49,605 bases of DNA from a virus: positions 1 through 49,605 of the IMG/VR virus record IMGVR_UViG_3300031673_000082; one strand, written 5' to 3'. Below, piece after piece: positions 10,650-43,491 of the stretch. Numbering within the stretch: position 1 is the first letter of the stretch; each line of letters begins with the position of its first letter. A program made the position numbers and the translations under genes. Under the pieces are notes generated by a model. It had not been told where the DNA came from and searched no databases. It worked only from the letters and a program-made list of their open reading frames with translations.

Positions 10650-10675
10650 GAGGCCATGAAAATGGCCTCTTTTTT
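10650..10675 (+). terminator. strong intrinsic terminator after the glycosyltransferase
   Basis: Perfect 7-bp stem GAGGCCA/TGGCCTC (10650-10656 and 10663-10669) with loop TGAAAA and a run of T from 10670 to 10675. It lies 25 bases after the stop codon and just before the repeated promoter at 10682. Confidence 0.85.
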
Positions 10676-10681
10676 ATGCGC

Positions 10682-10719
10682 GATAGACAAAAATCTTTTT
10701 TTCGGACTATATAACCATA
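10682..10719 (+). promoter_or_regulatory. 38-bp duplicated promoter element, copy 1
   Basis: All 38 bases are identical to 23403-23440. Within it TAGACA and TATATA are 18 bases apart, a plausible -35/-10 pair, with a conspicuous run of seven T and CGGAC in the spacer. It follows a terminator directly and precedes the head-maturation genes by 25 bases. The downstream leader also resembles copy 2 (GGAAAACTAT, then CTGGAG as ribosome binding site). Likely a late promoter recognised by host or phage-modified RNA polymerase. Confidence 0.7.
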
Positions 10720-10743
10720 AGGGAAAACTATCTGGAGATAGGC

Positions 10744-11154
10744 ATGTTCAGCGTAGAACGAAATGGCTTTACCATCGTATCCACAGAATCCGAACTGAAG
10801 GCACTTGTAAAGAAGGGCGAATCTTGTCGAGTCGAAACGATCAAGGCTGGCGTCAGTACGGTTGATGGAGAGATTATCTATTTCGTTGAAAAGGCGTTGA
10901 AGCAAGGCGAACACAAAACTCCCCCTAAAGGCTATCCAGAAAAGCGCAAAGAATATGCGGTTCCTTCTGTTTATGCTTTCCCCATTGATGACGAAGAGCA
11001 TGTGCGTGCCGCTCTGTCCTATTTCCACAAACATCGTTTTGACAGCAACGAACAGAAGAAAGAAGCTGCCAAGCGTATCATGAGTGCTGCCAAGAAACAT
11101 GGCGTTGATGTTAGCACTGATAGTGACGTGGCTCATGCGGCAAAGGGGAAATAA
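10744..11154 (+). CDS. DUF6582-like protein linked to the prohead protease, 136 aa
   Basis: The C-terminal two-thirds (YAVPSVYAFPIDDEEHVRAA, then a helix AKRIMSAAKKHGVDVS) match the small domain often found next to or fused with phage prohead proteases, in which a Phe-Pro/Leu-Pro motif is followed by HVRxAxxxF and RIxxAAKKxGV. Its function is not established; a role in head assembly is suggested by the conserved neighbourhood. First gene after the duplicated promoter, with a TGGAGATAGGC leader before the ATG. The stop overlaps the protease start by one base. Confidence 0.65.
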   Translation: MFSVERNGFTIVSTESELKALVKKGESCRVETIKAGVSTVDGEIIYFVEKALKQGEHKTPPKGYPEKRKEYAVPSVYAFPIDDEEHVRAALSYFHKHRFDSNEQKKEAAKRIMSAAKKHGVDVSTDSDVAHAAKGK

Positions 11155-11969
11155 TGCAACTTGCCCATAAATATGACCCAGTAGTCGTAGATATTCCTTG
11201 CACTGTCCGCGTGATGGTCAAGGGCGGTAAGCGCATGGTGGCTGTAGAGGCTTCATGCGAAGCAAAAGATTCTGAAGGCGACATCATCCTTCAAAAGGCG
11301 TTACTGGATTCCGCCGCGTCTTTTATTCGTTCAGGCGACTTGGATATCGACCATCTTTCCAAGATTGGTGATCGAGTTGGTGCCAAGGACCCGATGCCAT
11401 CTTATATCGTTGGCGAGCCCACGGAAGTGAATGACATTGGCGGTGGACGTACAGAAGTCATTGGCTTTTTGTATCCAGAAAATCCCAAATCGGATTGGTT
11501 GTGGAGCAAATTGCAGTCTGAGCCGGATCGCTGGAGATCATCCATTTATGGGTTCCCTACCGACATGGACGAAGGAACAGGCGGTGCAAGCCGGTATTTG
11601 GTTAAAGCGATGGATTGGACCAGTTTGGCTTTTACGCGAAATCCGGTAAACGATGCTATCAAAGGCCATGCGCGAATCATTAAGGCGAATGCTTTTATGT
11701 CAGAATTAGTGAAATGTGGCATCACCTGCGAAAAGGGAATGCCAGAAGGAATGATAAATAATTCATGGGAAAGTGCCACCCTGAATCAGCTTTATGAGCG
11801 ATACTTGGCACATCGCGCTGAAGGTTGTGATCTTTTGAAGTCCCACAGGACGACATATCACATCCAGAAGCACATGGAGGTGTGCGAAGGAATGCCCCTT
11901 GAAAAGGCTGAAATCGTCGCCAACGCTATAGCAAATCTTGTCAAACGGAGTATTAAACATGGATATTAA
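11154..11969 (+). CDS. prohead protease, 271 aa
   Basis: HK97-type serine protease that trims scaffold and capsid proteins during maturation. Visible signatures are an early EASCEAKDSEGDII segment (32-45), catalytic His in DIDHLSK (H67), catalytic Ser in WRSSIYGF (S129 or S130) and MDWTSLAFTRNPVN (153-166), the usual last strand. The C-terminal extension has C/H residues (CDLLKSHRTTYHIQKHMEVC) that might bind a metal. It lies directly before the scaffold-like and capsid genes, and its stop overlaps the next start. Confidence 0.88.
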   Translation: MQLAHKYDPVVVDIPCTVRVMVKGGKRMVAVEASCEAKDSEGDIILQKALLDSAASFIRSGDLDIDHLSKIGDRVGAKDPMPSYIVGEPTEVNDIGGGRTEVIGFLYPENPKSDWLWSKLQSEPDRWRSSIYGFPTDMDEGTGGASRYLVKAMDWTSLAFTRNPVNDAIKGHARIIKANAFMSELVKCGITCEKGMPEGMINNSWESATLNQLYERYLAHRAEGCDLLKSHRTTYHIQKHMEVCEGMPLEKAEIVANAIANLVKRSIKHGY

Positions 11970-12957
11970 TCAGCTTTCTGCCGCTGTTGCGAACCTGAAG
12001 GCGGATGAGCTTGCAGTCGTCCTGAAGAAGAGCACAGGAGGCTTGAAGCGTATCCGCGAAATTCTGGATATGTGGGATGATCCCGACGAGTTCCTTTCCA
12101 AGGAACAGATTGGCCTTGGTCCCGTTGAAAGTGCCTCTGGCGAGGGACTTGACCGCATGCTTGACCGCTATTCGCATCCCCAGAAGCAGGAAGGGATTGC
12201 GCTGGCTTATGACAAACTGGCTACTCGTCTTGACCGTATGGAAAAGGCCATGAGCGGACTCTTGCTGACTATGGGCAAGGCCGAGGAAAAGGAAGAAGAG
12301 GAAGAGGAAGAGAAGGAGCGCGAAGAAAGTGCTAAGTCTCTGGCCGAAAAGGTTGCCTCTGAAGTCCTTCGTCGCATGGGAAAGGCCGAAGACAAGGAAG
12401 AAGAGGAAGATGAGAAGGAAATGGAAAAAGCCCTTCGCATCATCGCTCAGAAGGCCGTAGAGAACGGCAATACCACCGAGTTCATGGCTGCCATGAAAGC
12501 TATCTCCGCCATCAAGGCAGAAGCCCGTGACGAGTCGGAAAACATGATGGAAGACGAGGATACCAATCAGGCTGATCGCGCTGCCGACGCTCGCAAGGCG
12601 AAGGAAGAGGATAAAGATGATCTTGGTAAATCGCGCATCAAAGCCCTTGAGAAATCCTTGGCCATGACCACATTGGAACTGGACAAGTTGCGCCAGACCA
12701 TCATGAACGCTTCCACCGGCAACCCCACCGCTCCCGTGATCCCGGCTTCTGTTCGCGGTAACGGCGACGTGAGTCCCATCGCCAAGGCCCGTGCCGACCA
12801 CGATGCAGGCTTGCTTGAAATGGGCGCTCTGGAAGAAGTGGAAAGTCTGATGCAGATGAAGGGATATGTGGATAACGGACAGCTTCCGGCTTCCGTGTTC
12901 GAGCGTAAACTAGAGAGTGCTTCGATGGGTGCTCGCCGTTGTTTTGAAGGGGAATAA
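11959..12957 (+). CDS. putative capsid scaffold/prohead core protein, 332 aa
   Basis: The protein lies between protease and major capsid protein, the usual site for scaffold. It is strongly acidic with Glu/Lys-rich coiled-coil segments (about residues 75-150 and 185-255), fitting a scaffold core that the protease degrades. I chose the ATG at 11959 (MDINQLSAAV), which overlaps the protease stop as in coupled genes; an open extension to 11938 exists but lies in the protease gene. No known family motif beyond composition is visible. Confidence 0.7.
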   Translation: MDINQLSAAVANLKADELAVVLKKSTGGLKRIREILDMWDDPDEFLSKEQIGLGPVESASGEGLDRMLDRYSHPQKQEGIALAYDKLATRLDRMEKAMSGLLLTMGKAEEKEEEEEEEKEREESAKSLAEKVASEVLRRMGKAEDKEEEEDEKEMEKALRIIAQKAVENGNTTEFMAAMKAISAIKAEARDESENMMEDEDTNQADRAADARKAKEEDKDDLGKSRIKALEKSLAMTTLELDKLRQTIMNASTGNPTAPVIPASVRGNGDVSPIAKARADHDAGLLEMGALEEVESLMQMKGYVDNGQLPASVFERKLESASMGARRCFEGE

Positions 12958-12959
12958 TC

Positions 12960-14729
12960 ATGGATAAGCGCGAAATTGGTTTTCTTCGTGAGAAAGCGCT
13001 TGCACAACTGGCTACTCAGTTTGGGCAGCACATGGACCAGCCGTTGCCACAGGCTATTATGGCATTGGCTGGAAGTCTGGGTAGCGAGTCCTCTTCGGAA
13101 ATCGGGCGTCGGGCAACCGAAGCCATGGCCAAAAGTTCCGCCGCTGGATGGAACAGTGGTTGCGGTGGTACAGCCGTAACAACCGATCAGGGTACTCCTC
13201 TGAAAGTCCTGTCAAAAGCCGTCTATCGTCAGGAATTGCTGAAGGCCGATCTTGACGTTGGCAACTTGACCAACTTCAGCCAGATCACAGGCGGTCAGGC
13301 ACTTGGCTTCGTGTCCTTGGATACGCAGCTTGCTCGTGGTACCGTGCGGCCCAAGTCGTTCACTCTGCATCAGGCGCTCAAGAAATCGGCGGCTTACCAG
13401 ATTGTCGATTACTGGTCCTACGCTCAGTCTACTGGCGGCCCTCTGCCCGGTCAGGCGTTCGCCAACTACAGTTCCGTTACCGCAGGCGCGTTGAACACCA
13501 GCGCCGGTCTGTACGAACTGAAGAACATCACCTTGAAGATGGCTCTGGATGGACGTGCGATTACCACCGCGCTGGCCGCTCAGAACAGCTTCGTCAACAT
13601 CGGTGAGCAGGAAACGGCGAATGCCAGCTTGAGCGTGTTGGAGTCGGTGAACTGGACTAACTACTGGGGCAATGGCGCTATCTATAGCAACCAGCCTACC
13701 GGTATCTATGCCCAGCTTCCTTCTCAGAACGTGTTCAACTTCTATGACTACTACAACACTGTAGCGAGTCCGAAGGGCGTCAGCCAGCCGCAGGCGGTAT
13801 TCGACTTCATTTATGAAGGCGTTGCCCAGATCAACAGTTATCGGGCTTATGGTCGGCCTACCCATGCGTTCATGGACCCGACTGCTTACGGTAGCTTGCA
13901 GGGTCTGTCCACCACGTTGCTGAACAACATCGTCAATGACTTCAGTGAGCGGATGAATACCCGCGCCCTGACCATCAACGGTGATCTGCGTGGCATGCGT
14001 ACCGCGTTCGGTGAAATCGGGTTTGAAATCGACATTTTCATCAATGCCCGTCAGTATCCCGCTCAGGCGTTCTACAACCAGCAGACCGCTACTTCGTATG
14101 CCACCACGAGCAATCCGTGGGCACCTGTCAGCGTTACCGTGGCAACTGGCACTGTAACTCCTTCCGGTCAGGTCAACCAGTTCGATAGCAACTACGGCGG
14201 CGGCGACTATGCCTATGCGGTTGCAGGCATGGATGCTTCCATGACCGAGTCCGAACTGACTTGGGTGAACGTGACTGGCGTTCCGAGTGGCGGCGTAGCT
14301 ACGCTAACCATCAATCCGTCCACCGCTGGCACTGTACAGGCGTTCCGTATTTACCGTTCCGGTAAGGGGTACTCGTACAGCAGCGGCGATGCTACCGCAC
14401 CTAATCAGGTTCGCTACATTGCTGATGTTCTTGCCAATGGTTCGAGCGCCGTGACATTCACGGATAGCAACCAGAGCATTCCCGGTTCCAGCACGATCTT
14501 CTTGCTGGACTTGGATGACGCTGACAATGCGTTGGATTATCGTTACTTGTTGCCGCTGTCTCGGGTCAACCTGTTCCAGAATAACCTGCTTATGCCTTGG
14601 GCGGTTGTCATCATCGGTGCTCCTCGTGTGCGGATTCCTAAGTTTCATGGCGCAATCAATAATTTTACGCCGGAAAACCCCAACTGGAATCCGTTGTCTG
14701 CAAATAACCCTAATGCACCTATGGGTTAA
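12960..14729 (+). CDS. major capsid protein with an Ig/FN3-like insertion, 589 aa
   Basis: Main shell protein, placed after protease and scaffold and followed by a strong terminator, as expected for a highly expressed gene. The body (about 70-385 and 515-570) carries capsid-like features such as THAFMDPTAYGSLQGLSTTL and, near the end, LLMPWAVVIIGAPRVRIP. Residues about 385-515 are a beta-rich Ser/Thr/Gly segment (YAVAGMDASMTESELTWV, AFRIYRSGKGYSYSS, VTFTDSN) that looks like an Ig or FN3 domain inserted on the outer face. Its codon use is strongly biased to abundant codons compared with neighbours. No alternative assignment competes well. Confidence 0.85.
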   Translation: MDKREIGFLREKALAQLATQFGQHMDQPLPQAIMALAGSLGSESSSEIGRRATEAMAKSSAAGWNSGCGGTAVTTDQGTPLKVLSKAVYRQELLKADLDVGNLTNFSQITGGQALGFVSLDTQLARGTVRPKSFTLHQALKKSAAYQIVDYWSYAQSTGGPLPGQAFANYSSVTAGALNTSAGLYELKNITLKMALDGRAITTALAAQNSFVNIGEQETANASLSVLESVNWTNYWGNGAIYSNQPTGIYAQLPSQNVFNFYDYYNTVASPKGVSQPQAVFDFIYEGVAQINSYRAYGRPTHAFMDPTAYGSLQGLSTTLLNNIVNDFSERMNTRALTINGDLRGMRTAFGEIGFEIDIFINARQYPAQAFYNQQTATSYATTSNPWAPVSVTVATGTVTPSGQVNQFDSNYGGGDYAYAVAGMDASMTESELTWVNVTGVPSGGVATLTINPSTAGTVQAFRIYRSGKGYSYSSGDATAPNQVRYIADVLANGSSAVTFTDSNQSIPGSSTIFLLDLDDADNALDYRYLLPLSRVNLFQNNLLMPWAVVIIGAPRVRIPKFHGAINNFTPENPNWNPLSANNPNAPMG

Positions 14730-14748
14730 GTCAGGAAGTTCTGACGAA

Positions 14749-14770
14749 GGGGCCGAAAGGCCCCTTTTTT
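14749..14770 (+). terminator. strong intrinsic terminator after the major capsid gene
   Basis: Perfect 6-bp GC stem GGGGCC/GGCCCC (14749-14754 and 14759-14764), GAAA tetraloop and six T (14765-14770), 20 bases after the capsid stop codon. A textbook rho-independent terminator. Confidence 0.92.
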
Positions 14771-14819
14771 AATTATCTCATTATAAATCTTTTCTGTTTA
14801 ACCCCGCACAAGCCCACAT

Positions 14820-14847
14820 TTGCACTTTATACAACTTTGGTTATACT
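14820..14847 (+). promoter_or_regulatory. sigma-70-like promoter for the speD/neck operon
   Basis: TTGCAC (14820-14825), a 16-base spacer and TATACT (14842-14847), 29 bases before the next start codon and 50 bases after the capsid terminator. It shares TTTGCACTTTA and TATACT with the promoter at 7698, defining a second promoter type in this genome. Confidence 0.6.
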
Positions 14848-14876
14848 AGTTAAATTATGTATATGGAGAATACACA

Positions 14877-15167
14877 ATGAAGATTGTAGGCACTTTGAAG
14901 CGTGGATGCGAAATTCATAATCGTTGGCTTCGCAACAACAAGAGATATGGCACTATATGCGACGTTGTATTTCGATTGCATGGCGCGGTTTATTACACGG
15001 ATGACCTCATTCCGAATCAGTATGATCGCATCAAAGACCATGTAGATATGGAATTTGAAATGACTAGCGTGGAAGTGACGCCAGAGAAAGCCGCTGAAAC
15101 CGTGGATGAAATTGAAGAGTCCACGAAACGGCCTCGTGGACGGCCTCCGCGCTTGGTTAAGGAGTGA
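14877..15167 (+). CDS. hypothetical protein with AT-hook-like tail, 96 aa
   Basis: Unrecognised protein. Residues 1-65 are mixed alpha/beta. The C-terminus, KRPRGRPPRLVKE (84-96), contains the RGRP core of an AT-hook, a minor-groove DNA-binding motif, preceded by an acidic linker. This suggests DNA contact, perhaps inside the head or at the neck, but no experiment is implied. It is the first gene after the promoter at 14820 (GGAG site before ATG) and is followed 4 bases later by speD, so the two are co-expressed. Confidence 0.6.
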   Translation: MKIVGTLKRGCEIHNRWLRNNKRYGTICDVVFRLHGAVYYTDDLIPNQYDRIKDHVDMEFEMTSVEVTPEKAAETVDEIEESTKRPRGRPPRLVKE

Positions 15168-15171
15168 GTAT

Positions 15172-15522
15172 ATGGCCTATCTCGGCACTCAGGTTCTTGC
15201 TGATTTCTATGAATGCGAAGAAGATGAATTAAAAGATTCTGCGAAGATTCAGGAAATCATGCTGGAAGCAGCGCGGATTGCTAAATGCACGATTGTGACG
15301 CACACGTTTCACACGTTTTCGCCGTATGGCGTGAGTGGAGCCGTGATCGTGGCTGAATCGCATTTGGCCATCCATACATGGCCTGAGCACCGATATGCGG
15401 CTGTAGACATATTCACTTGTAGTGATTCCATGGAAATCGACAAGGCCATAGAATATATTGGCAGAGAATTGTATGCCATGGATACCGTACTGACGCGATG
15501 TGAGCGCGGCGGAATTGGCTAA
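15172..15522 (+). CDS. speD: S-adenosylmethionine decarboxylase proenzyme (class 1b), 116 aa
   Basis: Pyruvoyl-dependent enzyme making decarboxylated AdoMet, the aminopropyl donor for spermidine synthesis. The sequence AESHLAIHTWPEHRY contains the self-cleavage site Glu62-Ser63; Ser63 would become the pyruvoyl group. His68 (IHTW) and Cys83 (DIFTC) are the other conserved processing and proton-donor residues, and their numbering equals that of the Thermotoga-type enzyme. The start at 15172 has AAGGAG seven bases upstream and gives the typical length; a longer frame from 15106 lies in the previous gene. No spermidine synthase is visible nearby, so the product would feed the host pathway or a different reaction. 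Its location among head genes is unusual. Confidence 0.93.
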   Translation: MAYLGTQVLADFYECEEDELKDSAKIQEIMLEAARIAKCTIVTHTFHTFSPYGVSGAVIVAESHLAIHTWPEHRYAAVDIFTCSDSMEIDKAIEYIGRELYAMDTVLTRCERGGIG

Positions 15523-15573
15523 TTATTTTTTGTAGTGCTACCATAGACAGACCATATTTTTGGTGAGATTGCC

Positions 15574-16566
15574 ATGCCACAAACATTTTATCCGCCATCA
15601 AATCAGTCGCAACTCCAGACTACGGCCTTGTGGCATTGGGACACGACCAATCCGTATAACCCGAAAGTTTTGGGATTTTCTCAATCCTATTTCGATCAGT
15701 ATGGCGTTGATCAATTAACCAAAACGGGTCTTTTGCCCACAGACTTGGAAAATTTTACAGGCGTTCCTCTTGTTTTTCAGGGCGTAACACCCACTCCAAT
15801 CCCTTCTGGCCAGATACTTCAGTATATTCGTTATGCAGAAGATGAAATAGAGCGATATGCTGGCGTTCTCTTATGCCAGACGTGGGTTGCGGCACCACCG
15901 GAAATTACCAACCAATACGCCATGGCCGCGGGGCTAGCCGGAAGCGGCCAAATGCTCGGCGTCAACTATGACTATGCGGAAGCTGCGTATGACTTTGACT
16001 ATTCTCGGTATAAGGATGAAGGCTGGGGATATATGCTTTTGAGAAACCGCCCTGTCCAGTCTCAGTTTTATACGCAGACGGACTATACGGCAGTTAAAAA
16101 CATGGTTTACATCTATCCGCTTTTGAGCCAGTTTTTCGCTATTCCTATTTCGTGGTTTGTGGAAGATCACCGCTCTGGATTCTTGCGCGTGGTTCCTTCT
16201 GAAAACGTGCAAATGTTGCCCTTGTTTACCATGCAGTTAGCTTTGATGGGATTCGCTGAAACCTTGGCTGGGGCCATCCATTTGCAATATACGGCTGGGT
16301 TCACGCAACAGGATTACGACGGAGAATATAGTTTTATCAAACGGCTCGTGTTGACCAAGGCAGCCATTCTCGCTTTGGCAGCCATACAAGGCACGATCAA
16401 TTTGGGCGCTACCGAGACTTCCACGGGCGTTGACGGACTTTCTCAGCGCACACAATACCAACCTGGCGCGTATGTCGGCATCATCAAAGAGTGGCGTGCT
16501 CAGGAAAAGAATTTGATGACGCAGTTAATCAATCACGTGGCAGGGCCAATGGTCGGGACATTCTAA
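15574..16566 (+). CDS. putative head-tail connector/neck protein, 330 aa
   Basis: Between the capsid and the neck genes, and of suitable size for a head-completion adaptor. It has the helical segment ILQYIRYAEDEIERYAGVLL (about 90-109), a pattern common in head-tail adaptor proteins, and late helices VLTKAAILALAAIQGTINLG. The middle is aromatic-rich (YDYAEAAYDFDYSRYKDEGW). No enzyme motif. Its TAA is followed immediately by the GTG start of the next gene. Confidence 0.6.
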   Translation: MPQTFYPPSNQSQLQTTALWHWDTTNPYNPKVLGFSQSYFDQYGVDQLTKTGLLPTDLENFTGVPLVFQGVTPTPIPSGQILQYIRYAEDEIERYAGVLLCQTWVAAPPEITNQYAMAAGLAGSGQMLGVNYDYAEAAYDFDYSRYKDEGWGYMLLRNRPVQSQFYTQTDYTAVKNMVYIYPLLSQFFAIPISWFVEDHRSGFLRVVPSENVQMLPLFTMQLALMGFAETLAGAIHLQYTAGFTQQDYDGEYSFIKRLVLTKAAILALAAIQGTINLGATETSTGVDGLSQRTQYQPGAYVGIIKEWRAQEKNLMTQLINHVAGPMVGTF

Positions 16567-17355
16567 GTGGCCATCCCGAATCCATATTTCTACAACAACA
16601 CCACTCGTGATCCGTGGACGTATGATTTCCCCGGAACGAATTTTGATATTATCATTGCGCGTTATGGCGTTTCTATGGCATGGCTGCAATCGCATCAATG
16701 TGCTTGTGTTGGGAGTAATGGAGTGGATGAAAATGGCATTTATACTCCAGAAGGAACGCCTAGCCCTACTTGTGCTACTTGCGCTGGAAGGGGAACGTAT
16801 TATGATGACCCACAAGGCCCATATACGGTTCTCATGAGTCACTTGAATGTGGCGAATGGTCAGGTTCCCGGATTCCATAACAACGAGCAATATGGCGGCA
16901 TAGTAAACGCTGACCCGATATTAACTATCCCTTCCAATCTGTCTCCCGTGTGGGAAAACGCATCCATGATGGATGCTTTTATTGAATACAATAATGACAT
17001 GCGATTTGAATCTGTTCTGAATGTAGGGCAAAATGAAATATTGCCGTATCGGTATAATGTTGGGTTCATTTCAGCAAGCGTTTATGATTCTCAGACGCAA
17101 AGAACTATTCCAGTTCCAAGCGGAAATGTTGTCGCGTCCGGGGCGAATGTGGTATTGTCTGGATATGCGGTTGGTACACCTTATGTGGTATCTTATACAG
17201 CATGGCCGATTTACATAGCTTATGCAAAACATGGAGGTTCACCACAGGTTAGACCGCTTATTCAGGGGCGTGGCTATCCACGGCGTTTCGTAGTGCAGTT
17301 GCTTGATCTATATCAACGGAATAACGGAAGTGGATTGAATGGTGGTACACTTTGA
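16567..17355 (+). CDS. putative neck protein with Cys-rich zinc-ribbon-like segment, 262 aa
   Basis: GTG start directly after the previous stop; translation is probably coupled. Residues about 42-80 contain CACVGSNG and CATCAGRGTYYD, a CxC...CxxC arrangement resembling a zinc ribbon (the C-x2-C-x-G-x-G end is like that in DnaJ-type knuckles). The rest is beta-rich with YVVSYTAWPIYIAYAKHGG and a basic C-terminus. Such Cys-containing proteins occur in the head-tail joining region of many myoviruses; the exact role is not known. Confidence 0.55.
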   Translation: MAIPNPYFYNNTTRDPWTYDFPGTNFDIIIARYGVSMAWLQSHQCACVGSNGVDENGIYTPEGTPSPTCATCAGRGTYYDDPQGPYTVLMSHLNVANGQVPGFHNNEQYGGIVNADPILTIPSNLSPVWENASMMDAFIEYNNDMRFESVLNVGQNEILPYRYNVGFISASVYDSQTQRTIPVPSGNVVASGANVVLSGYAVGTPYVVSYTAWPIYIAYAKHGGSPQVRPLIQGRGYPRRFVVQLLDLYQRNNGSGLNGGTL

Positions 17356-17395
17356 ATGTGCGCGAATTTGATTATTTAGAACTGAGGTTGAAAGC

Positions 17396-20068
17396 ATGAC
17401 GATACCAACATTTAATCCCGGAGAAGTATTAACGGCGAGTGGTCTTAATACGGCGCTTAGTGCAACTGCTGTTGAACCAACATTGACCGCTAACACTTGG
17501 ACTGCGCCGCAAACCTTTGACGCGCCCATCATCCAGACCCCCGGACAGGGCGCGAACAACTCGTCTCCCTTCGCTCAATACGGCGATATGTGGACAGATG
17601 CTCTGCTATCCGGTGGCGTCCTCGGGGTGCCATCACCCGCGTCCCTGAGTGCTACATTACCACTTGGGACGGCTGCTGTTCTGGGTCAGCGTGTGCCATT
17701 TCCAGCTACCCCGTTCAGTGTAGCAGCGTCGTCCACGTCCTATCTTGACCTGAGCAATACTGGAGTGCTGGCGGTTTCGACTTCGGCGACGGTTACGGCC
17801 AACTCGCTGCGGCTATGGGAAGCGATCTCAGCGGCCATATTGTCACCTGCTCCGTCTCTTGCGCCGTCCACAGCAGCCGGAACGCTGGCACTCGGAACTT
17901 ATGATTACGAGTTGGTGGCGCATGACGCTACCGGATACGGATTGCCTGGCACGGCAGTATCTGTTGCGCTTGCTTTGACCGCCCCTACCCCCACGCTAGC
18001 GGCGTCCACGGCAGCGGGAACCCTTGTTGCTGGGACTTATACCTACGGTCTGGTGGCGCATACCGCTACTGGCTACTCCCTGCTTGGCACGACCGACGCC
18101 ATCACCACGACCGCGACTGGTGAAGTTGTCCTGACTTGGGTATTCCCGCCCGATGTTACTTCGGTAGATATTTATGGGCGCGTAGCTGGGTCTTTGGGAT
18201 TGTTGGCGTCCGGCATCACGGCGACGACCTGGACAGATGATGGCAGTGTTACGGTTGGTGCAGCGGCTCCTACCACGGCAACTGCTACTGGCGAGGTGGT
18301 GGTGACATGGGCCAATCCGCTCAACGAAACCAGCATGGACATTTACGGGCGCATCTCCGGCTCCATCGGGCTGCTCGCGTCTGGGGTGACTGGCACGACT
18401 TGGACGGATACCGGAACTGCTACCGTTGGGGCTGCTCCTCCGACCGTGACTACGAGTAATGCTATTCAGATTATCAACCCACGGGCAAGAATTGGGTATG
18501 ATAGCTTAATGTTGAATATCCTGGACTTTGGGGCAGACCCAACGGGGGCAACAGCATCAGACGCTGCATTTATACTGGCAAATAAATATTTGGCGCGTAT
18601 ACAGCAAGTGTTGCCAGTCTATATAAATGTGTACACTCAAGGCATTAAAATAATACTCCCACCGGGTACATACCTACTAACGGAGCCCAGCTCGTTTCTT
18701 AATTCAGATTTATTTTACCACAACGAATTTGGGGTAGAATTCGAGGCATCTGGACCAGTAGGATCGGTTGGGATAGTCTATAATCCGGCGACGGTTGGGC
18801 CTCTCATAAACAATCAAAATACCTTCTTATTTTTGAGGTTCAACAAGATTGTTTTTTATGGGGAAAATTCTTCCTGTGATATTATAGACAGCTATTCTAC
18901 GGGGGAGGCACAGGACTATGCTTTTTTTGACTGCTTATTTAGTGGGTCATGGAACTATGGAGTAAATTTAACTGGCTCGAACACTAATAGCGAATGGAAG
19001 TGGGATAGATGTGCCTTTACCGGGGCTTGGAGTAGTTTCTTGTATGTCGGAGATACAAACACCTCGGACCAGTTCTTAAACTATTGGTTTATCCACTGTA
19101 AATATGATACCAGTTATCCTTGGATAACGATGTACCATGGTGGAAGCATAAGACTTGTGGATTGTGATGTCAGTGGGTACTCTCCGTCGTCTCAAACATA
19201 TATTTTCAATTTGTTGAATGTTGTACATGATGACGGAGTGCAGAGTTTTAAAGCTTCTGGTGTAAGGTTTGAGCAGAAGACCCAGTATGCCGGAATCATG
19301 AATTGCGAGTGGGGTGGCGGGATCGTTAAATTTGATACTTGTGATTTCAGTTCGCAGGCATTTAATTCGTTTGCTCCCACCGTATTGTCAGCATGTTTTA
19401 ATCCAGGGAACAGTGCTGGACCTTCCATACACTTTGATACATGCAGCATTATGGGACAGCATCAGTATATTTCTGGGGTAGGAATTAACCCATCCGCCGC
19501 CGCGATAAAGTATTCTTGCTGTATTTTTGATAACCACGCATACCCGGAAGACGCATTTATTTTCACCCCTACAAATGGTGAGTATGGACAGTTGAGTGTG
19601 GTTAATTTAGATAGATGCAAAGGTAGCGGTTCGCAATTGTCGCAGGTAGTAGGGGAGTATCTAGACGCATCACTAAATTGGCAGAATTCGCTATCCGGTA
19701 CAACTGCAAGACGGGTTATTTCCGTACGGAACATTCTTTCTAATCTGCCGTCCGCCACGAGTGGTAGTATAACCGTAGGACTTCCGCTGAATGCACTCAT
19801 TACGCGTGTTAGCTTTATACTACCGAATGGGTGTTGTACCTCTACTAGCACAACCGCTGGATTTACTGTCCAAACTGGAGAAACCACGCCAACTGTTCTT
19901 GCTTCAATTTTGCTAAATAATCCAGACTATGCGGCAGGAGGAACTCTTATAAAAGAAATTGCCTTCCCGTGCTCGACAAGAGAAAAGGCGACTATAACTC
20001 TGGTCCCCAACTCGGGCAATAACCAACAGGCCGCGTATTCTTATTGCCTTATTGAGTATATAGGATAA
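17396..20068 (+). CDS. tail or neck spike with beta-helix (pectate-lyase-like) domain, 890 aa
   Basis: Residues 1-150 are a virion-attachment-like region. Two tandem internal duplications follow: AAGTLALGTYDYELVAHDAT at about 160 with a related copy at about 206, and two 53-residue units at about 241-293 and 297-349 (SVDIYGRVAGSLGLLASG / SMDIYGRISGSIGLLASG), which look like FN3 domains. From 373, LNILDFGADPTGATASDAAF and IKIILPPGTYLL mark a right-handed beta-helix of the pectate-lyase superfamily, typical of polysaccharide-degrading or -binding spikes. Base composition changes near 18480 from GC-rich to more AT-rich, a sign of mosaic origin. It sits among neck genes, not tail-fibre genes, so it may be a neck or head appendage. 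Confidence 0.8.
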   Translation: MTIPTFNPGEVLTASGLNTALSATAVEPTLTANTWTAPQTFDAPIIQTPGQGANNSSPFAQYGDMWTDALLSGGVLGVPSPASLSATLPLGTAAVLGQRVPFPATPFSVAASSTSYLDLSNTGVLAVSTSATVTANSLRLWEAISAAILSPAPSLAPSTAAGTLALGTYDYELVAHDATGYGLPGTAVSVALALTAPTPTLAASTAAGTLVAGTYTYGLVAHTATGYSLLGTTDAITTTATGEVVLTWVFPPDVTSVDIYGRVAGSLGLLASGITATTWTDDGSVTVGAAAPTTATATGEVVVTWANPLNETSMDIYGRISGSIGLLASGVTGTTWTDTGTATVGAAPPTVTTSNAIQIINPRARIGYDSLMLNILDFGADPTGATASDAAFILANKYLARIQQVLPVYINVYTQGIKIILPPGTYLLTEPSSFLNSDLFYHNEFGVEFEASGPVGSVGIVYNPATVGPLINNQNTFLFLRFNKIVFYGENSSCDIIDSYSTGEAQDYAFFDCLFSGSWNYGVNLTGSNTNSEWKWDRCAFTGAWSSFLYVGDTNTSDQFLNYWFIHCKYDTSYPWITMYHGGSIRLVDCDVSGYSPSSQTYIFNLLNVVHDDGVQSFKASGVRFEQKTQYAGIMNCEWGGGIVKFDTCDFSSQAFNSFAPTVLSACFNPGNSAGPSIHFDTCSIMGQHQYISGVGINPSAAAIKYSCCIFDNHAYPEDAFIFTPTNGEYGQLSVVNLDRCKGSGSQLSQVVGEYLDASLNWQNSLSGTTARRVISVRNILSNLPSATSGSITVGLPLNALITRVSFILPNGCCTSTSTTAGFTVQTGETTPTVLASILLNNPDYAAGGTLIKEIAFPCSTREKATITLVPNSGNNQQAAYSYCLIEYIG

Positions 20069-20071
20069 AAT

Positions 20072-20527
20072 ATGGACATTTTAGACTTTTCAGGCTTTTC
20101 TATTAACTCAGGTGATAATGTTGTAACGGGACAAGCTGCATCCACTTTCGGCCTAGCCTCCACGACAACGGCAGGTGCAATTATCGTAACGGCAGCACAA
20201 CTGTGGGGTCGGTACTTCTCGAATGGTGCAACCCAGACGGGGGCATTTACGCTAACGACTGATACCGCAGCAAACATTTTAGCTGCTGTGCCTAATGCAG
20301 TGGTTGGCACGTCTTTCAAATGGCGCTTTATCAACAATGACCAGAGCGCCGCGGGATATGCCGGAACGCTGGCAGGTGGCACGGGCGTTACGGTCGGGAC
20401 GATCTTGCCTAATCCTGCGGTGCCGAAAGGTGGTCTTATGGACTATGTATTCACCTTCACTGCCATCGGGGCTACGCCTGCATTGACCGTTGAAGCAGTT
20501 GGCGGTAACTCGGCGGCGCTGCTGTAA
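20072..20527 (+). CDS. putative virion decoration/appendage protein, 151 aa
   Basis: Small, Ala/Gly/Thr-rich, beta-predicted protein without signal or membrane segment (for example GAFTLTTDTAANILAAVPNA, then FKWRFINNDQSAAGYAGTLA). The style is that of exposed virion proteins. It begins 4 bases after the spike gene and so is probably its partner or a separate decoration protein. GC-rich like the first third of the spike gene. No family assigned. Confidence 0.55.
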   Translation: MDILDFSGFSINSGDNVVTGQAASTFGLASTTTAGAIIVTAAQLWGRYFSNGATQTGAFTLTTDTAANILAAVPNAVVGTSFKWRFINNDQSAAGYAGTLAGGTGVTVGTILPNPAVPKGGLMDYVFTFTAIGATPALTVEAVGGNSAALL

Positions 20528-20550
20528 AGCTGATCCAGTCCGCCAGCAAC

Positions 20551-20566
20551 CCCCGCTTCGGCGGGG
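20551..20566 (+). terminator. GC-rich hairpin after the decoration gene
   Basis: Perfect 6-bp stem CCCCGC-TTCG-GCGGGG, followed only by TT and then CAAAGGAG. The lack of a T run makes it a weak terminator at best; it may stabilise the upstream mRNA 3' end. The next gene's ribosome binding site lies directly behind it. Confidence 0.5.
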
Positions 20567-20584
20567 TTCAAAGGAGCGCATTAA

Positions 20585-20725
20585 ATGCCTGAATTATATA
20601 GCTTGCAAGGATTTACATTGGCTGACTTGGCGCGATATACGAAAGAGGGCGCCTATTCTCCAAAAGCGTCTAATGACTTCCATTTGTTCTATGTTGGGCG
20701 TGATGATGTAAAGGAAATATTATGA
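20585..20725 (+). CDS. small hypothetical protein, 46 aa
   Basis: A short frame with a strong AAAGGAG site 8 bases before its ATG and a stop that overlaps the next gene (ATGA). The protein reads MPELYSLQGFTLADL at its start and ends GRDDVKEIL; no membrane segment or known motif. The good ribosome binding site and the overlap with the PLD-like gene are the main evidence that it is real. It might be a partner or inhibitor of the PLD-like protein, which is speculation. Confidence 0.5.
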   Translation: MPELYSLQGFTLADLARYTKEGAYSPKASNDFHLFYVGRDDVKEIL

Positions 20726-21267
20726 ATCCAATTTTATCAGCACTTGGAGTAATAAATGAAACCAGTCAATCGACTCGCATCATCACTCCTTACGCGGATG
20801 GTACAAAAGCATTTGTCAGTTTCTTAGCGAGCGCTTCAATATCTGGAGCAAAATTACGCACCATGATTTATGGATGTACATTGTCGTCATTCTTTGATGG
20901 CGTCTTATCAGCCAAAAAGTCAGGATGTGATGTAAAGATAATTTTTGACCATACGCAATCGACTGGTCATGCGGAAGCGCCAATGATAGCGGAATTGATT
21001 AAAGAGGGATTTGTTGACGGTTCGGATTTTTTAATTGGAACCAGCCCAAAGCATGAAATTGTCCATCTTAAACAAACAACAATATGGCTTCCAGATGGAA
21101 GTGTCACTACACTGGAAGGAAGCTGGAATTATAGTAAATCTGCGTCACTAGAAATGAATATGCTTTCATTCAACGATTCACAAGATTTAGCCAAATATAC
21201 CAGCGACACTTTTGATAAATTATGGGAATGGATTTCAACTCACGAGGAAAAATATCAGATTAAATAG
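20722..21267 (+). CDS. phospholipase D-superfamily protein with one HKD-like motif, 181 aa
   Basis: The chain has the layout of a single-motif PLD-family enzyme, which would act as a dimer: an N-terminal alpha/beta half with VKIIFDHTQSTG (71-82) and the motif H115-L-K117, then LEGSWNYSKS (131-140), corresponding to the GSxN part. The Asp normally four residues after K117 is absent at that position (W122); D125 is close. Family members hydrolyse phosphodiesters in phospholipids or DNA. Without a signal peptide, a cytoplasmic nuclease is more likely than a lipase. Located in the mosaic segment and followed by an antisense HNH gene. Confidence 0.7.
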   Translation: MNPILSALGVINETSQSTRIITPYADGTKAFVSFLASASISGAKLRTMIYGCTLSSFFDGVLSAKKSGCDVKIIFDHTQSTGHAEAPMIAELIKEGFVDGSDFLIGTSPKHEIVHLKQTTIWLPDGSVTTLEGSWNYSKSASLEMNMLSFNDSQDLAKYTSDTFDKLWEWISTHEEKYQIK

Positions 21268-21860
21268 CCCATCTCCTGCATAAAATCTATTGGATGTTTA
21301 GCGCTTTTTCTTAAATTGCATGAAGGATGCAGGAGTTGAATGTTTTCTGGGTTGCTTGTTCCTCCGCCATTGATCGGTATTATGTGATCTATATGATATA
21401 CATTATCCAATGGAAGATAGCAGGCGGTACATTTTCCTTTCTGCTGTTTATAAATTCGTTCTATGTCATTTTGAGTGTACCTGCCTCCAGAAGATTTTAT
21501 TTTTGCTCTTCTATGCGCGCAATAAGATGCCATTTTTATAGGATTATTTTTGTTCCAATTCTTGTTTGCCTCAAGAATTGAATTTCTATTTTTCAAGTAT
21601 CTAGCAGCAGAACTGGATTTCACCTTGTCTGGATTTTTTAGCTTCCAGCGCCTTGCCGCGTCAACAGCTTTTTGTTTGTTTGCTTCATAATGACGCTTGT
21701 ACGATATTTCGCGCTTTTCTCTGTTAGCTTCCGCCCATTCGCGCTTGGAAATATTATGACAATCTTTGCATAGGTTTGAAAATCCTGATTTGCTGTTAGA
21801 TTTTGCAAAATCTGATAAAGATTTTTCTAGGCCACATTTAGAGCATATTTTATATTGCAT
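21255..21860 (-). CDS. free-standing HNH endonuclease with N-terminal zinc motif, 201 aa
   Basis: Antisense to all nearby genes. The N-terminus has CSKCG and, later, CKDC, a Cys4 zinc motif; the middle is basic and repetitive; the C-terminus is an HNH nuclease: CTACYLPLDNVYHIDHIIPI (the HxDH core), GGGTSNPENIQLLHPSCN. Such genes are typical phage homing endonucleases that spread between genes. I chose the ATG at 21860, which has AAGGA seven bases upstream; an extension to a TTG at 21899 lacks support. Its 3' end overlaps the PLD-like gene tail by 13 bases. Confidence 0.88.
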   Translation of the reverse strand: MQYKICSKCGLEKSLSDFAKSNSKSGFSNLCKDCHNISKREWAEANREKREISYKRHYEANKQKAVDAARRWKLKNPDKVKSSSAARYLKNRNSILEANKNWNKNNPIKMASYCAHRRAKIKSSGGRYTQNDIERIYKQQKGKCTACYLPLDNVYHIDHIIPINGGGTSNPENIQLLHPSCNLRKSAKHPIDFMQEMGYLI

Positions 21861-21993
21861 TTGAGTATCCTTCTCAAATATCCAATGTGAACGTGGCAAG
21901 ATGGTGGATTTCCATCGGTTCAGTTGCGCAACCTAGCCACTGTGATATTATGTATTATATTTTTTGTAATGCAAATTTTGAGAGGCACAAAGC

Positions 21994-22557
21994 ATGGCGT
22001 CCTATGACGTTTATACCAATCTTCCAATGGACAAGGTAACCGACTTGGCCTTGGAGACTTTTGCCAAGTGGGCAGCATTTGCTTTGGGGAAGGAAGCGTT
22101 GAACGGGAAAATTCTGGCCAATCCGTCCGGCAAATACGCCAAGTCTTTGCGGATAGAGGAAAAGCAGAATTATGTGGCTGTATTTGCAGACGCCAAGGAA
22201 GCGCCTGAAGCGAATTGGTTAGAACATGGGCGCATGTCTACCATCAACTTGCAACGCTCGATGCTGGCTGGCGGGAAGGTGGCCAAGGACGGTTCAAAAT
22301 ATCGTGTCATCCCAATACCATCGGAAAAAAGCCACAGGGCTATTCCGCAACCTACTCAACTGGATGCCATAGGAAACGCAGTCGGATTGAAGATGCCTCG
22401 CTATCAGGCGTTTGCGCGTGTAAGTGGAACGAATTTTTACACCATGAGCAGCAAGAAGCCGGAAAAGTGGCATATTCCACCCATGGCGGCGTATAGTCCA
22501 GCAGAGATTCTTTCTGAATGGGCGCGATCAAAAGCAGCGGAGCAATCAAATGCCTAG
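21994..22557 (+). CDS. putative HK97 gp10-like neck/tail-completion protein, 187 aa
   Basis: Position before the tail terminator-like and sheath genes, size, and the features LRIEEKQNYVAVFADAKEA and EANWLEHGRMSTINLQRS (about 65-90) suggest the family of small neck proteins that join head to tail. The segment WLEHG followed by a Pro/Ser-rich C-terminal arm is typical. Its stop overlaps the next start by 8 bases. Direct homology cannot be tested here. Confidence 0.55.
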   Translation: MASYDVYTNLPMDKVTDLALETFAKWAAFALGKEALNGKILANPSGKYAKSLRIEEKQNYVAVFADAKEAPEANWLEHGRMSTINLQRSMLAGGKVAKDGSKYRVIPIPSEKSHRAIPQPTQLDAIGNAVGLKMPRYQAFARVSGTNFYTMSSKKPEKWHIPPMAAYSPAEILSEWARSKAAEQSNA

Positions 22558-23407
22558 CATAACCGCAGAAGCCGTACCGACTGGCGGAGCAATATTTCTT
22601 CAAATAGAAGCTACCGCACCATATACATTATCCCGTAGTGCGGATGGTGGACAGACGTGGACGGTTCTGGATACGACGAATGCACCGATACTTCCACAGG
22701 GCAGAGATCAACCTGTAGTTTGGATTGATGTGGGAGATGCCAATCCTACATTTTTGGATTTCTCTACCAGTTACACTTATGAGATTTCCGATGTAAATGG
22801 TACCGCCGTGAGCGCTGGGATTATCCCCGCAGCGCAAGTGGAAGTCTATTCGGATAATATGACTTACATGATGGTGAGACTGATTCAAGGGGCTGCACAA
22901 GGATTGGTTTTGGAGAATAAAAACTGGCAGAGGCCAAGCGTTGTTCAGGCCATGCCATTGGACCGAGTAACGGTAAAGTTTCCCCTTATTACCATCAATC
23001 TTGATCTTGTGCAGCAAGACAACGCGCCCATTGGCCGGAACGTGCCGAACACGATAACAAACCAGTGGACCATCCCCGGATTGGCGCACAGGAGATATTC
23101 CATCCACGTCCTAACTCAAACTGTGGCGGAAAGAGATTTTTATCATAATGTGATTATCGGATTGGTGTGTTCTGTAATGAACAACGCCTTTAGCCAGTTT
23201 GGCATCAATATGGATACATCCTATTCATATCAGGCCGTCCAAGGGCAAGAAGTTTCAAGAGATAGCGCTCCCGGATTCTATTATTCACAGATCATGTTTG
23301 ATATGACCGGGCCACAAAACATCAATGTAGTGACCACATATCCGATACCGCAGAATGTCATATTTCAAGACAACCCCACAGGGTATGTCCCAGTGGTTGT
23401 GGGATAG
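22550..23407 (+). CDS. putative tail terminator/tail-completion protein, 285 aa
   Basis: Residues 1-95 look like an Ig/FN3-type beta domain (APYTLSRSADGGQTWTVLDT). Residues about 130-285 resemble a tail-terminator fold: FPLITINLDLVQQDNAPIGR, then YSIHVLTQTVAERDFYHNVI, a helix and a closing strand region. It lies directly upstream of the sheath gene, the expected position. The stop codon (23405-23407) lies inside the duplicated promoter element, so transcription of the tail operon starts at the very end of this gene. Confidence 0.6.
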   Translation: MPSITAEAVPTGGAIFLQIEATAPYTLSRSADGGQTWTVLDTTNAPILPQGRDQPVVWIDVGDANPTFLDFSTSYTYEISDVNGTAVSAGIIPAAQVEVYSDNMTYMMVRLIQGAAQGLVLENKNWQRPSVVQAMPLDRVTVKFPLITINLDLVQQDNAPIGRNVPNTITNQWTIPGLAHRRYSIHVLTQTVAERDFYHNVIIGLVCSVMNNAFSQFGINMDTSYSYQAVQGQEVSRDSAPGFYYSQIMFDMTGPQNINVVTTYPIPQNVIFQDNPTGYVPVVVG

Positions 23408-23454
23408 ACAAAAATCTTTTTTTCGGACTATATAACCATATAGGAAACTATATG
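23403..23454 (+). promoter_or_regulatory. 38-bp duplicated promoter element, copy 2, with leader hairpin
   Basis: Bases 23403-23440 equal 10682-10719 exactly, including TAGACA-N18-TATATA. The element overlaps the previous stop codon. Immediately after the -10 region a perfect hairpin, CATATAG-GAAA-CTATATG (23437-23454), would sit at the 5' end of the transcript and may protect the sheath mRNA; copy 1 has only an imperfect version. A CTGGAG ribosome binding site follows before the sheath ATG at 23468. Confidence 0.7.
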
Positions 23455-23467
23455 CCTGGAGCATGTC

Positions 23468-25264
23468 ATGCCAAATCCGAATATAACTTATCAGGGCCAA
23501 ACGCTGGTCATCCCAGGCGTTTATTATGCTGACAATGTTTCCGCTGTTCAGGCTTCGCCTTCGCAGACTTCGCAGCCTTTGCTGTTTATTTGCGAGTCCT
23601 ACGGCGGCGTTCCGCAGACACCATATTCTTTTTTCAACCCGCAACAGATTTATTCATTCCTGCGCGGGAGTCCAGCCGCGCAACTGGTACAATTCTTGTA
23701 TAACGGCTCAAATCAGTTAAATGGAGCGCAGCAAGTTATTGTTATCGGCGTAAACCCGTCTACACAATCGTCCGCAAACATTGTTTCTTCTGGCGGCACG
23801 GTACTTATAAACATGCAGTCTGCGCAGTATGGAGCGCCATCTAATCTTCTGACGTATAGCGTTGCGGCTGGCAATGTGACTCCCGGTATCAATCTGACGC
23901 TGAATGACGGTTATGCACAGACTTCCGCACAAGGTCAGAATCTTGGCGTTCCGTTTGCGCTTGCATATACCGGCACTGCCACGGGCAGCGTAAATTATAC
24001 TGTTTCCGGCTCCGCTGGTGTAGCAACCAACTTCATTGTTTCCAGCCCGAACACTGGCGAGAGCTTCAATTTGCCGCTTGGGCCTTCTACCTATCCAAAC
24101 GTGCAGTCTATCGTTAGCTTCCTGAATGGTAGTGGCTACTATAGCGCGTATGCCGTATCGGAAAGCACGCTGACATCCACCTCTTTGGATATCACGTCCG
24201 CCCCCGTAACGCTGCCGCCGCCAACTGTGGCTTCTGGCCTAAAGACGTATACCTACGAAAATGCCACGGCTATTCTTGGGGACGTTGTTTATTGGTTGAA
24301 TACATATTCCGGAATGGCTACGGGAACGGTTGCTTCTGGTGTTGTTTCCAGTTCTTCGCTTGTCATTAGCCCAGTTACGGCACAAGGGTTTAGTGGCGCG
24401 TCCAATGGGACCACATCGCTTTCCGATTACGAGCAGGCACTGAACAGCACAATCAATACTCGTGTGTCCGTGTCTTTCGCCGACACTACGGCATTGGGTG
24501 TTCCTAATGCTGGTGTTGCTAACGCCGTTTATAGCAGCCAAGTGGCCCAAGGCAATCCTCGGCGCTTCGTGACGGGTTCCAATCTCGGCGATACCGTAAC
24601 GATTGCCGCACAAACGGCCCGTTCGTATAACGCTCTTCAGGCAACCTATGTCTATCCTGGTATCTATGCCAATAGCGTGATTACCGGTCAGAATACGCTG
24701 TTTAGCGGGCTGTACACGGCGGCTTGCGTGGCTGGCATGATGGCCGGAAATTCTCCGTGGATTCCGTTGACCAACAAAAGCATTAACGCTACCGCGATGG
24801 AAACTACGCTGCAAATTTCTGACGTGAATACGCTTCAGCAAGCAGGTGTCATGCCGGTATGGATTTCGCCCATTACGCAAGTTCCAACCATTATTTCTGA
24901 CCTGACTACATGGCAGAATGACAGCAATCCTGAAAATATCTTTAATCAGCAAGTGGCAGAACGGCAGGCTCTCGAAAATGCCATGATTCAGGGATTGCAG
25001 CCGTATGTTGGGACTCCGGTTGCAGCCAGTCCTAAAGTGCAGGGAATGGTGCTGAATGCGGCGAAGCGGATTCTGAACCAGAATACCTACACGGATCAGT
25101 CTGGCGGGATAATTTCTTCGTGGAATCCCAAAACACTGACCGCTGTTTATACGGGTGCTACGCAATCGTGGTATGTTTCCGTGGACGTGGTTCTTGTCGG
25201 ACAAGCTCGGTTTATTACAGTAATGGCTAACATCCAGCCGTTGAATCTCTCGCTGGCTGCATAA
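23468..25264 (+). CDS. tail sheath protein, 598 aa
   Basis: Contractile sheath subunit. The N-terminus (LVIPGVYYADNVSAV) has the PGVY pattern of sheath proteins. The central Ser/Thr/Gly-rich part is a surface insertion. The C-terminal domain, with ANIVSS-like strands replaced here by ALENAMIQGLQPYVGTPVAA, MVLNAAKRILNQ and a last strand WYVSVDVVLVGQARFITVMA, fits the conserved polymerisation domain. It is followed after 15 bases by the tube gene, the standard order. Driven by the promoter at 23403. Confidence 0.87.
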   Translation: MPNPNITYQGQTLVIPGVYYADNVSAVQASPSQTSQPLLFICESYGGVPQTPYSFFNPQQIYSFLRGSPAAQLVQFLYNGSNQLNGAQQVIVIGVNPSTQSSANIVSSGGTVLINMQSAQYGAPSNLLTYSVAAGNVTPGINLTLNDGYAQTSAQGQNLGVPFALAYTGTATGSVNYTVSGSAGVATNFIVSSPNTGESFNLPLGPSTYPNVQSIVSFLNGSGYYSAYAVSESTLTSTSLDITSAPVTLPPPTVASGLKTYTYENATAILGDVVYWLNTYSGMATGTVASGVVSSSSLVISPVTAQGFSGASNGTTSLSDYEQALNSTINTRVSVSFADTTALGVPNAGVANAVYSSQVAQGNPRRFVTGSNLGDTVTIAAQTARSYNALQATYVYPGIYANSVITGQNTLFSGLYTAACVAGMMAGNSPWIPLTNKSINATAMETTLQISDVNTLQQAGVMPVWISPITQVPTIISDLTTWQNDSNPENIFNQQVAERQALENAMIQGLQPYVGTPVAASPKVQGMVLNAAKRILNQNTYTDQSGGIISSWNPKTLTAVYTGATQSWYVSVDVVLVGQARFITVMANIQPLNLSLAA

Positions 25265-25279: not shown

Positions 25280-25774
25280 ATGCCCGGTTATAATGCAACT
25301 CAGCTTGAGTACAATGTAAAGAACGCGAACCTTGTTCAGGTGATGCTTGGCGACGCAGTGGTTGCCTATGCACAGACCACTAACCCTACACTGGACTTTG
25401 GCGCGGAGCAGCTATACGGTATTGGCAGCGCCAACCCGCAAGAAGTCCAGCAGCTTCGTTTGAGCCCCCAGATTACACTGGATGCTTTTGAGCTAACGCA
25501 GAAAGGCTTGACGGTTCTTGGTATGCCTGCAACGTATGCACAGGTGCTGGCCAATAACCAGTTCGACATACATTTGATGGGCGCTGACGGAACTACTTAC
25601 AACACCTATGTAGGCTGCGTATGTTCTTCGTTTGCACAGAATATTTCTACCAACCAGCCCATTACTGATTCTCTGGTGTTCTTGGCTATGGATATTCTGG
25701 ACCAGACTGGCGTATCTATTATGCAGGGCCAGAACGCTTATGCCACTGGATTTTTGACGGGCATCAATGCGTAG
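25280..25774 (+). CDS. tail tube protein, 164 aa
   Basis: Inner tube subunit, one gene after the sheath, of the usual size. Beta-rich with LVQVMLGDAVVAYAQTTNPT, a central helix FELTQKGLTVLGMPATYAQV and a C-terminal strand region ITDSLVFLAMDILDQTG. It polymerises around the tape measure to form the DNA channel. Has its own TAGGAG ribosome binding site and is probably the most highly translated gene of this operon besides the sheath. Confidence 0.85.
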   Translation: MPGYNATQLEYNVKNANLVQVMLGDAVVAYAQTTNPTLDFGAEQLYGIGSANPQEVQQLRLSPQITLDAFELTQKGLTVLGMPATYAQVLANNQFDIHLMGADGTTYNTYVGCVCSSFAQNISTNQPITDSLVFLAMDILDQTGVSIMQGQNAYATGFLTGINA

Positions 25775-42474: not shown

Positions 42475-42977
42475 TGACGAATCAGGAATTGATTACGGCA
42501 GTAGAAGGACTTTGGAATCGTAGCGGCCCAGCAAAGGCGCTTCCGCTTCGTGGGCTTCAACAGATTGCCTTGCAAGAAGCGCTTGAAACGGAGGCGTATC
42601 AGGATAGCGAAGGGAATTGGACAATCGGCGTAGGCCACACTCCGAGTTATCCCGGAGAAGTGTGGACCATAAACCAGTGTTTGCAGATATTCATTCAAGA
42701 CGTTTACAAAGATGGCGTGAATCCCGTCAATGCACACATTCCTTGGGCAAAAGATATGGGCATCGTTCGCTGGTGGGTGTTCGTGAATATGTCCTATAAT
42801 GAAGGAATAGAACGTCTTATGGCCTTTACTGATACGCTTTCTGCGGCAGAGCGTGGAGATTGGTCAGGAACGGTCCAAGGAATGAAAGAAAGTCTTTGGT
42901 ATAACCAAGTGGGCCAGCGAGCTATTGAACTTTGCAAACAAATGGAAACGAATGAATGGATTTTGCCCAATGCCTGA
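42474..42977 (+). CDS. endolysin, GH24 (T4-lysozyme-like) family, 167 aa
   Basis: Cleaves the glycan of peptidoglycan during lysis. The catalytic triad is visible with the exact spacing of T4 lysozyme: E35, D44 and T50, in the segment EALETEAYQDSEGNWTIGVG. No signal peptide, so release depends on a holin. I chose the ATG at 42474; the frame extends 10 codons upstream into the previous gene. The usual length for the family is about 160. Confidence 0.88.
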   Translation: MTNQELITAVEGLWNRSGPAKALPLRGLQQIALQEALETEAYQDSEGNWTIGVGHTPSYPGEVWTINQCLQIFIQDVYKDGVNPVNAHIPWAKDMGIVRWWVFVNMSYNEGIERLMAFTDTLSAAERGDWSGTVQGMKESLWYNQVGQRAIELCKQMETNEWILPNA

Positions 42978-43491
42978 GCCAATCATGCAATATAAAGAAA
43001 ACCCTTCTCAAGCATTGATGGAAAAGATCATAAAGCAATATATGCCGCTCATTAAGAACCGGGCGAGAAAGTTTACCGGCGTAGATTACGATGACTTGGT
43101 TCAAGATGGCTGTATCGCCATTATGTCAGCCGTCAAGTTCTATGATCCGTCACGGCTGGAACGGTTCGACGGATATGTCAGCCGAGTGGTAGAAAATGCC
43201 ATGCGCCGGTCTGTTTCTGCCATTTACACGGTTCATCAGTACGAGGTGAAGATGGAAAACATGGATGAGTATGCCCATGTGTCGGAGCCTCATCCACAGT
43301 TCACCGATAACGATATGCTGTTTTCCATGCTTAATATCCCGCCAATTTTTGCTTATGCCGTTTATAGCGATCTGAGCGCCATATCAAATGGAACAAGCTT
43401 TGACGATTGTATGCCGAAGACCATAAGTCGGCCTGCTTGGCATGTGCATCGAACTAAGGGGTATGCTGCTTTGAAGGTTGAGATGGAATAG
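42970..43491 (+). CDS. sigma-70 region 2-like protein, 173 aa
   Basis: Residues about 26-80 match sigma region 2: LIKNRARKFTGVDYDDLVQD, then GCIAIMSAVKFYDPSRLERF and DGYVSRVVENAMRR, with the aromatic residues used to bind -10 DNA. The C-terminus has no recognisable region 4, which normally binds the -35 box. It may act as a small phage sigma or sigma-like factor for late promoters such as the duplicated 38-bp element. The ATG at 42970 overlaps the endolysin stop by 8 bases. Confidence 0.72.
   Translation: MPEPIMQYKENPSQALMEKIIKQYMPLIKNRARKFTGVDYDDLVQDGCIAIMSAVKFYDPSRLERFDGYVSRVVENAMRRSVSAIYTVHQYEVKMENMDEYAHVSEPHPQFTDNDMLFSMLNIPPIFAYAVYSDLSAISNGTSFDDCMPKTISRPAWHVHRTKGYAALKVEME

Follow-up and report, generated by a model that had tools for sequence, protein, structure and literature searches.

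In phages, promoters typically take the form of a single motif common to a genus. The closest described systems for the locus considered here are Mu and P2, whose late promoters are activator-dependent (C and Ogr, respectively), and T4, whose late promoters are served by gp55 with TATAAATA at -10. The promoters of T7-type polymerases are near-identical blocks that end at +1. We analysed a linear virus record of 49,605 bp, referred to here in its entirety as the window, which is probably around half of a ~90-kb genome, judging from its relatives. A preliminary description had claimed that a promoter sequence of 38 bp is duplicated ahead of its head and tail operons, and had suggested that more than a plain sigma-70 site is under selection. 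We propose that the two copies probably represent a paired late promoter with a -35/-10 architecture that host RNA polymerase reads, probably together with a phage-specific factor.

The identity of the two sites is confirmed: both carry GATAGACAAAAATCTTTTTTTCGGACTATATAACCATA on the + strand, with 0 mismatches over 38 bases (Table 1). This is the longest exact repeat within positions 1-49100, that is, excluding the tandem array at the record's end; the longest exact repeat in Markov surrogates (n = 40) was 18. The array itself has a 27-bp unit (49148-49605), runs off the end of the record and is probably repetitive coding sequence. The element has no third copy in the 49,605-bp record, as no other site falls within three mismatches of TCTTTTTTTCGGACTATATAACCAT, and the record thus holds no extra copies at non-promoter sites. 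Scanning either part of the element separately, again at three mismatches or fewer, gave no additional site, and the next-best ungapped match to the 36-base core within the record is 22/36. Beyond the record, the exact 38-mer has 0 matches in IMG/VR. A DNA search of a phage collection with the element also returned 0, as did 397 genomes of the Acidiphilium MAG's family when scanned at three mismatches. A 15-mer core does have 13 matches in IMG/VR, all judged from their context to be due to chance. Among the phages found, no other one conserves the element.

The placement of the copies ahead of a protease-scaffold-capsid operon and a sheath-tube operon is likewise borne out, with the scaffold assigned by position and composition. 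Homologues of the DUF6582-domain gene sit 5′ of the protease in loci L023, L103, L124, L130 and L131, and protease homologues occur in every nearer relative whose locus covers that region. At the tail operon, homologues of the adaptor-like gene (L024, L085 and L103) align up to residue 264-270 of 285. The stop codon of this gene (TAG) forms bases 3-5 of copy 2, so that the overlap noted earlier is real. Several other features lie nearby. A cluster of eight tRNAs (Met, Phe, Asn, Pro, three Ser and Cys) occupies window positions 6876-7686, a consensus-like promoter (TTTGCA-N17-TATACT) lies at 14819, 3′ of the head-operon terminator, and the product of 15106-15522 resembles S-adenosylmethionine decarboxylase when judged by eye. 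At window positions 15544 and 21934, ahead of two more operon starts, TAGACA and TAGCCA are followed 15-18 nt on by a -10-like hexamer; these may be weakly related to the element, and lack significance taken by themselves.

Table 1. Features around the two copies of the element and the candidate sigma gene, in window coordinates.
Feature	Position	Strand	Basis
Intrinsic terminator of upstream glycosyltransferase gene, directly 5′ of copy 1	10650..10675	+	8-bp stem, T run
Copy 1 of 38-bp element; putative head-operon late promoter	10682..10719	+	exact repeat
TAGACA (10684-10689), 18-nt spacer, TATATA (10708-10713) in copy 1	10684..10713	+	sequence
Leader 1 with CTGGAG ribosome site	10720..10743	+	homologous to leader 2, indels
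DUF6582-domain gene, first of head operon	10744..11154	+	PF20223 E 1.8e-12
Head maturation protease	11154..11969	+	phrog_1028 E 1.4e-4
Probable scaffold	11938..12957	+	position, composition (acidic, coiled); no family match
Major capsid protein	12960..14729	+	phrog_752 E 1.5e-32
Strong terminator ending head operon, 3′ of capsid gene	14746..14773	+	9-bp stem, T run
Adaptor-like gene; stop codon (23405-23407) within copy 2	22550..23407	+	homologues
Copy 2 of 38-bp element; putative tail-operon late promoter	23403..23440	+	exact repeat
TAGACA-N18-TATATA in copy 2	23405..23434	+	sequence
Leader 2 with CTGGAG ribosome site	23441..23467	+	homologous to leader 1, indels
Tail sheath, first gene 3′ of copy 2	23468..25264	+	phrog_279 E 4e-30
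Tail tube-like protein	25280..25774	+	phrog_985 E 2.7e-20
Sigma-70 region 2 protein, 173 aa, candidate factor	42970..43491	+	PF04542 E 1.3e-12, residues 21-82

Both copies contain the TAGACA-N18-TATATA arrangement attributed to them. TAGACA matches TTGACA at 5/6 positions and the spacer is 18 nt, against 16-18 nt for sigma-70 sites; TATATA matches TATAAT at 4/6 and is missing the final T. A standard sigma-70 scan, which demands that final T, does not list the element. Other choices of -10 exist in copy 1, namely GACTAT at 10705 (spacer 15) and TATAAC at 10710 (spacer 20). The -10 is weak and off-consensus, and the choice of hexamer uncertain. If TATATA is taken as the -10, the unchanged block ends close to +1.

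Similarity between the two sites extends beyond the 38 bp. The leaders, AGGGAAAACTATCTGGAG and TAGGAAACTATATGCCTGGAG, are related, with indels between them, and both show GG(G)AAA(A)CTAT followed by CTGGAG. Their similarity was equalled by 1/5000 shuffled pairs and 0/703 other leader pairs. This homology implies a duplicated cassette of ~55 bp, in which the first 38 bp are without any change and the last 18-20 bp have acquired indels. As the leaders are homologous yet carry indels, the core appears to be the constrained part, and an unchanged 38 bp beside a drifted leader is consistent with constraint on a promoter. A hairpin presenting the SD in both leaders was also considered, and was discarded as not significant and frequent in other leaders.

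Relatives place this pair in a broader context. About 20 nearer relatives, with 47-57% capsid identity, came from alignment of the nearest capsids, and sheath alignment added more. None carries the 38-mer of the window, yet several have a repeat of their own near the starts of the head and sheath operons. In L121, the exact 20-mer ACCCGCTATTGGCCCTTCCC lies 3′ of the protease and 5′ of the sheath cistron. In L119, TTAACCCTAG[CT]CAAA occurs at three sites (5′ of the protease, 3′ of the protease and 5′ of the sheath cistron), with an 18/19 match. L120 has TAAC[AG]TA[CG]CTACTAG[AC]CGC at two sites (16/19 match), and three sites in L130 bear TTTCCTTTGGAAT-like blocks. Scored against a background of cross-genome pairings, the within-genome pairs of L119, L120 and L121 reach p ≤0.011, that of L130 is weaker (p 0.022), and that of the window, with its 38 bp, is far outside the distribution. 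Overall, a pair above background was found in ~5/14 nearer genomes, window included, the remaining genomes being unremarkable. In the records of L120 (87 kb) and L121 (89 kb), the private repeat occurs exactly twice each at three mismatches or fewer, as in the window. The head site in relatives is often 3′ rather than 5′ of the protease, so that positions match by operon and not by exact gene. Pair matches in L134 and L135 look coding or GC-rich and were left uncounted, and a seeming promoter pair in L085 is a terminator hairpin. At least three nearer relatives, and probably a fourth, possess a private repeat near the head and sheath operons.

These private blocks are followed by sequences resembling a -10. 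The best such hexamers in L119 stand at an equal offset after all three copies (TATTCT, TATCCT and TAAAGT), giving a consensus layout of TAG[CT]CA-N17-TANNNT at three operon starts. In L130, TATAAT, TAGATT and TAGGAT lie at offsets of 15, 14 and 14, and in L121, TATAAT follows one copy and TGTAAT the other. The private block therefore occupies the -35 side and is followed 3′ by a -10 of sigma-70 type, a layout that the element of the window also fits. A looser pattern, TAGNCA-N15-18-NANNNT, is ~fivefold denser at near-relative operon starts; this figure is biased by TAG stops and redundant loci, and was not counted. What is established is the repeat, with its boundaries and placement, and the presence in relatives of promoter-like repeats where the matching operons start.

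From these patterns we infer that the element is a promoter, where its +1 lies, that it acts late and that it needs a factor. In our favoured reading, one late promoter would be used twice, for the head operon and for the tail operon, with the identical block reaching from around -38 to around +1, followed by a leader that has drifted. Host RNA polymerase would read the -35/-10 layout of TAGACA, 18 nt, and TATATA or an overlapping -10. A phage-specific factor, either a variant sigma or an activator covering the -35 region, would most likely set specificity, and head and tail genes would thereby fire together. Such a factor is likely, because the block is off-consensus and relatives keep a genome-private block at both operons. 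The claim of a promoter duplicated before head and tail genes is well supported by position, by identity ending near the expected +1, by the terminator 5′ of copy 1 and by the repeats of relatives. That the element is more than a plain sigma-70 site is plausible, given its off-consensus -10, its absence from the sigma-70 scan and an upstream block private to each phage.

The first alternative holds that the element is a plain host sigma-70 promoter which recombination has recently copied between the two operons, with no phage factor involved. The -35 match and 18-nt spacer agree with this, as does canonical TATAAT at one site each in L121 and L130. Further, two copies only, absent from relatives, are what a recent event predicts, and recent copying followed by slight drift may account for the unchanged 38 bp. 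However, the leaders already carry indels while the 38 bp do not, the -10 is poor, and independent private pairs elsewhere make a single accident less likely. We consider this explanation unlikely.

Specificity might instead reside in the phage's own region-2 sigma, acting in the manner of T4 gp55 or SPO1 gp28. The protein in question was previously described as sigma-like, and it is a genuine Sigma70_r2 member; the off-consensus late-operon promoters would also suit a sigma of this type. Its C-terminal half has no Pfam match and no recognisable region 4, no relatives of it occur in IMG/VR, and its structure model (pLDDT 44) is too poor to help. Against this reading, PF04542 is missing from the records of L119, L120, L121 and L130, all with private pairs, and its only other occurrence among near relatives is in L125 (locus L156), which shows no pair. 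This absence indicates that the general factor is not this protein. The protein is a candidate for a role confined to this phage, but as an explanation of the promoter it seems quite improbable.

It is very unlikely that the element is no promoter at all, and instead a recombination joint or a protein-binding operator common to two modules. In favour of this, 12.7 kb of head-completion genes lie between the copies, and exchange between phage modules does take place at short sequences they share. Nevertheless, the block ends near the expected +1 and faces the same direction at both operons, with matched leaders and ribosome sites, and the promoter-like repeats of relatives stand at matching operon starts. 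Nor is the element palindromic, and Rfam gave no match. That the element is a promoter for a single-subunit phage RNA polymerase of the T7 type is less likely still: its length, identity and end near +1 resemble that class, but PF00940 has no match in 14 records, comprising the window fragment and near-complete related records (weak evidence, as the search's control was also matchless), there are two copies only, and the copies in relatives are accompanied by sigma-70-like -10 elements.

More distant relatives exhibit a different pattern. Capsid alignments recovered ~80 of these, at 23-29% capsid identity, including Pseudomonas phage Dolphis, Yersinia phage fHe-Yen8-01, Bordetella phage PHB04, Aeromonas phage ST4 and Enterobacter phage phiT5282EW. 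The intergenic gaps of these ~90-kb myophages contain a near-invariant GTCGTGAC-type motif, GTCGTGA[CT]-N3-A-N2-[AC]T-N5-C, carried by L016, L017, L019-L022 and most of L025-L109. It lies just 5′ of the protease in 69/78 loci (median -25) and 5′ of the adaptor gene preceding the sheath in 53/61, compared with 4.6% of random windows, and also stands ahead of portal, terminase and baseplate genes. Dolphis has 12 full sites, all on the + strand and mostly directly 5′ of morphogenesis genes. The wider group thus marks the same two operons with a single shared promoter-like sequence. The start codon is frequently 22-25 nt past the first G of the motif, a distance which suggests near-leaderless late mRNAs in these phages. 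We found nothing relevant to the motif in the literature; it is absent from the operon starts examined in nearer relatives, and the motif, whose GTCGTGA[CT] would be expected ~22-25 nt ahead of a gene, has no match in the window. Homology between the element and the motif through their -10/+1 half was ruled out, since 22% of shuffles did equally well.

We tentatively speculate that a subclade of large myophages may use a per-genome late promoter, in two or three copies at head and tail operons, with the specificity of its factor turning over and the copies changing in concert, while the wider clade retains one fixed motif. The useful addition here, in terms of computed sequence patterns, is comparative: this fixed motif of the wider clade versus blocks that are paired and private in some members of the subclade to which the window belongs. 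If true, the blocks would form a naturally occurring series of matched promoter pairs with fast-changing factors, useful for studying the co-evolution of regulators and sites. They would then also yield late promoters specific to a phage, for use where expression is to be limited by host range. The GTCGTGAC motif, should its promoter reading hold, would flag late operons in many unannotated phages.

How, then, does this locus compare with known systems? Like the window, phages with the GTCGTGAC motif have a block ahead of the head operon and the adaptor-sheath region, copy 2 of the window being directly before the sheath. However, Dolphis has around a dozen copies of the motif versus two of the element, and GTCGTGAC is absent from the element. 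As in T4, one promoter sequence is repeated ahead of head and tail operons, and the phage has a sigma region 2 protein of its own. Unlike in T4, TATAAATA is absent, the element reading GGACTATATAACC, the upstream sequence is strictly shared between copies, and relatives have private pairs without the sigma protein. The locus differs from Mu and P2 in that its box varies between related phages, and no protein of the Mor/C family (PF08765) was matched in the window or in 15 near-relative records, mostly fragments. It resembles them in the proposed use of host RNA polymerase, in a -10 of sigma-70 type, and in a block specific to the phage, at or 5′ of the -35, that several late operons have in common.
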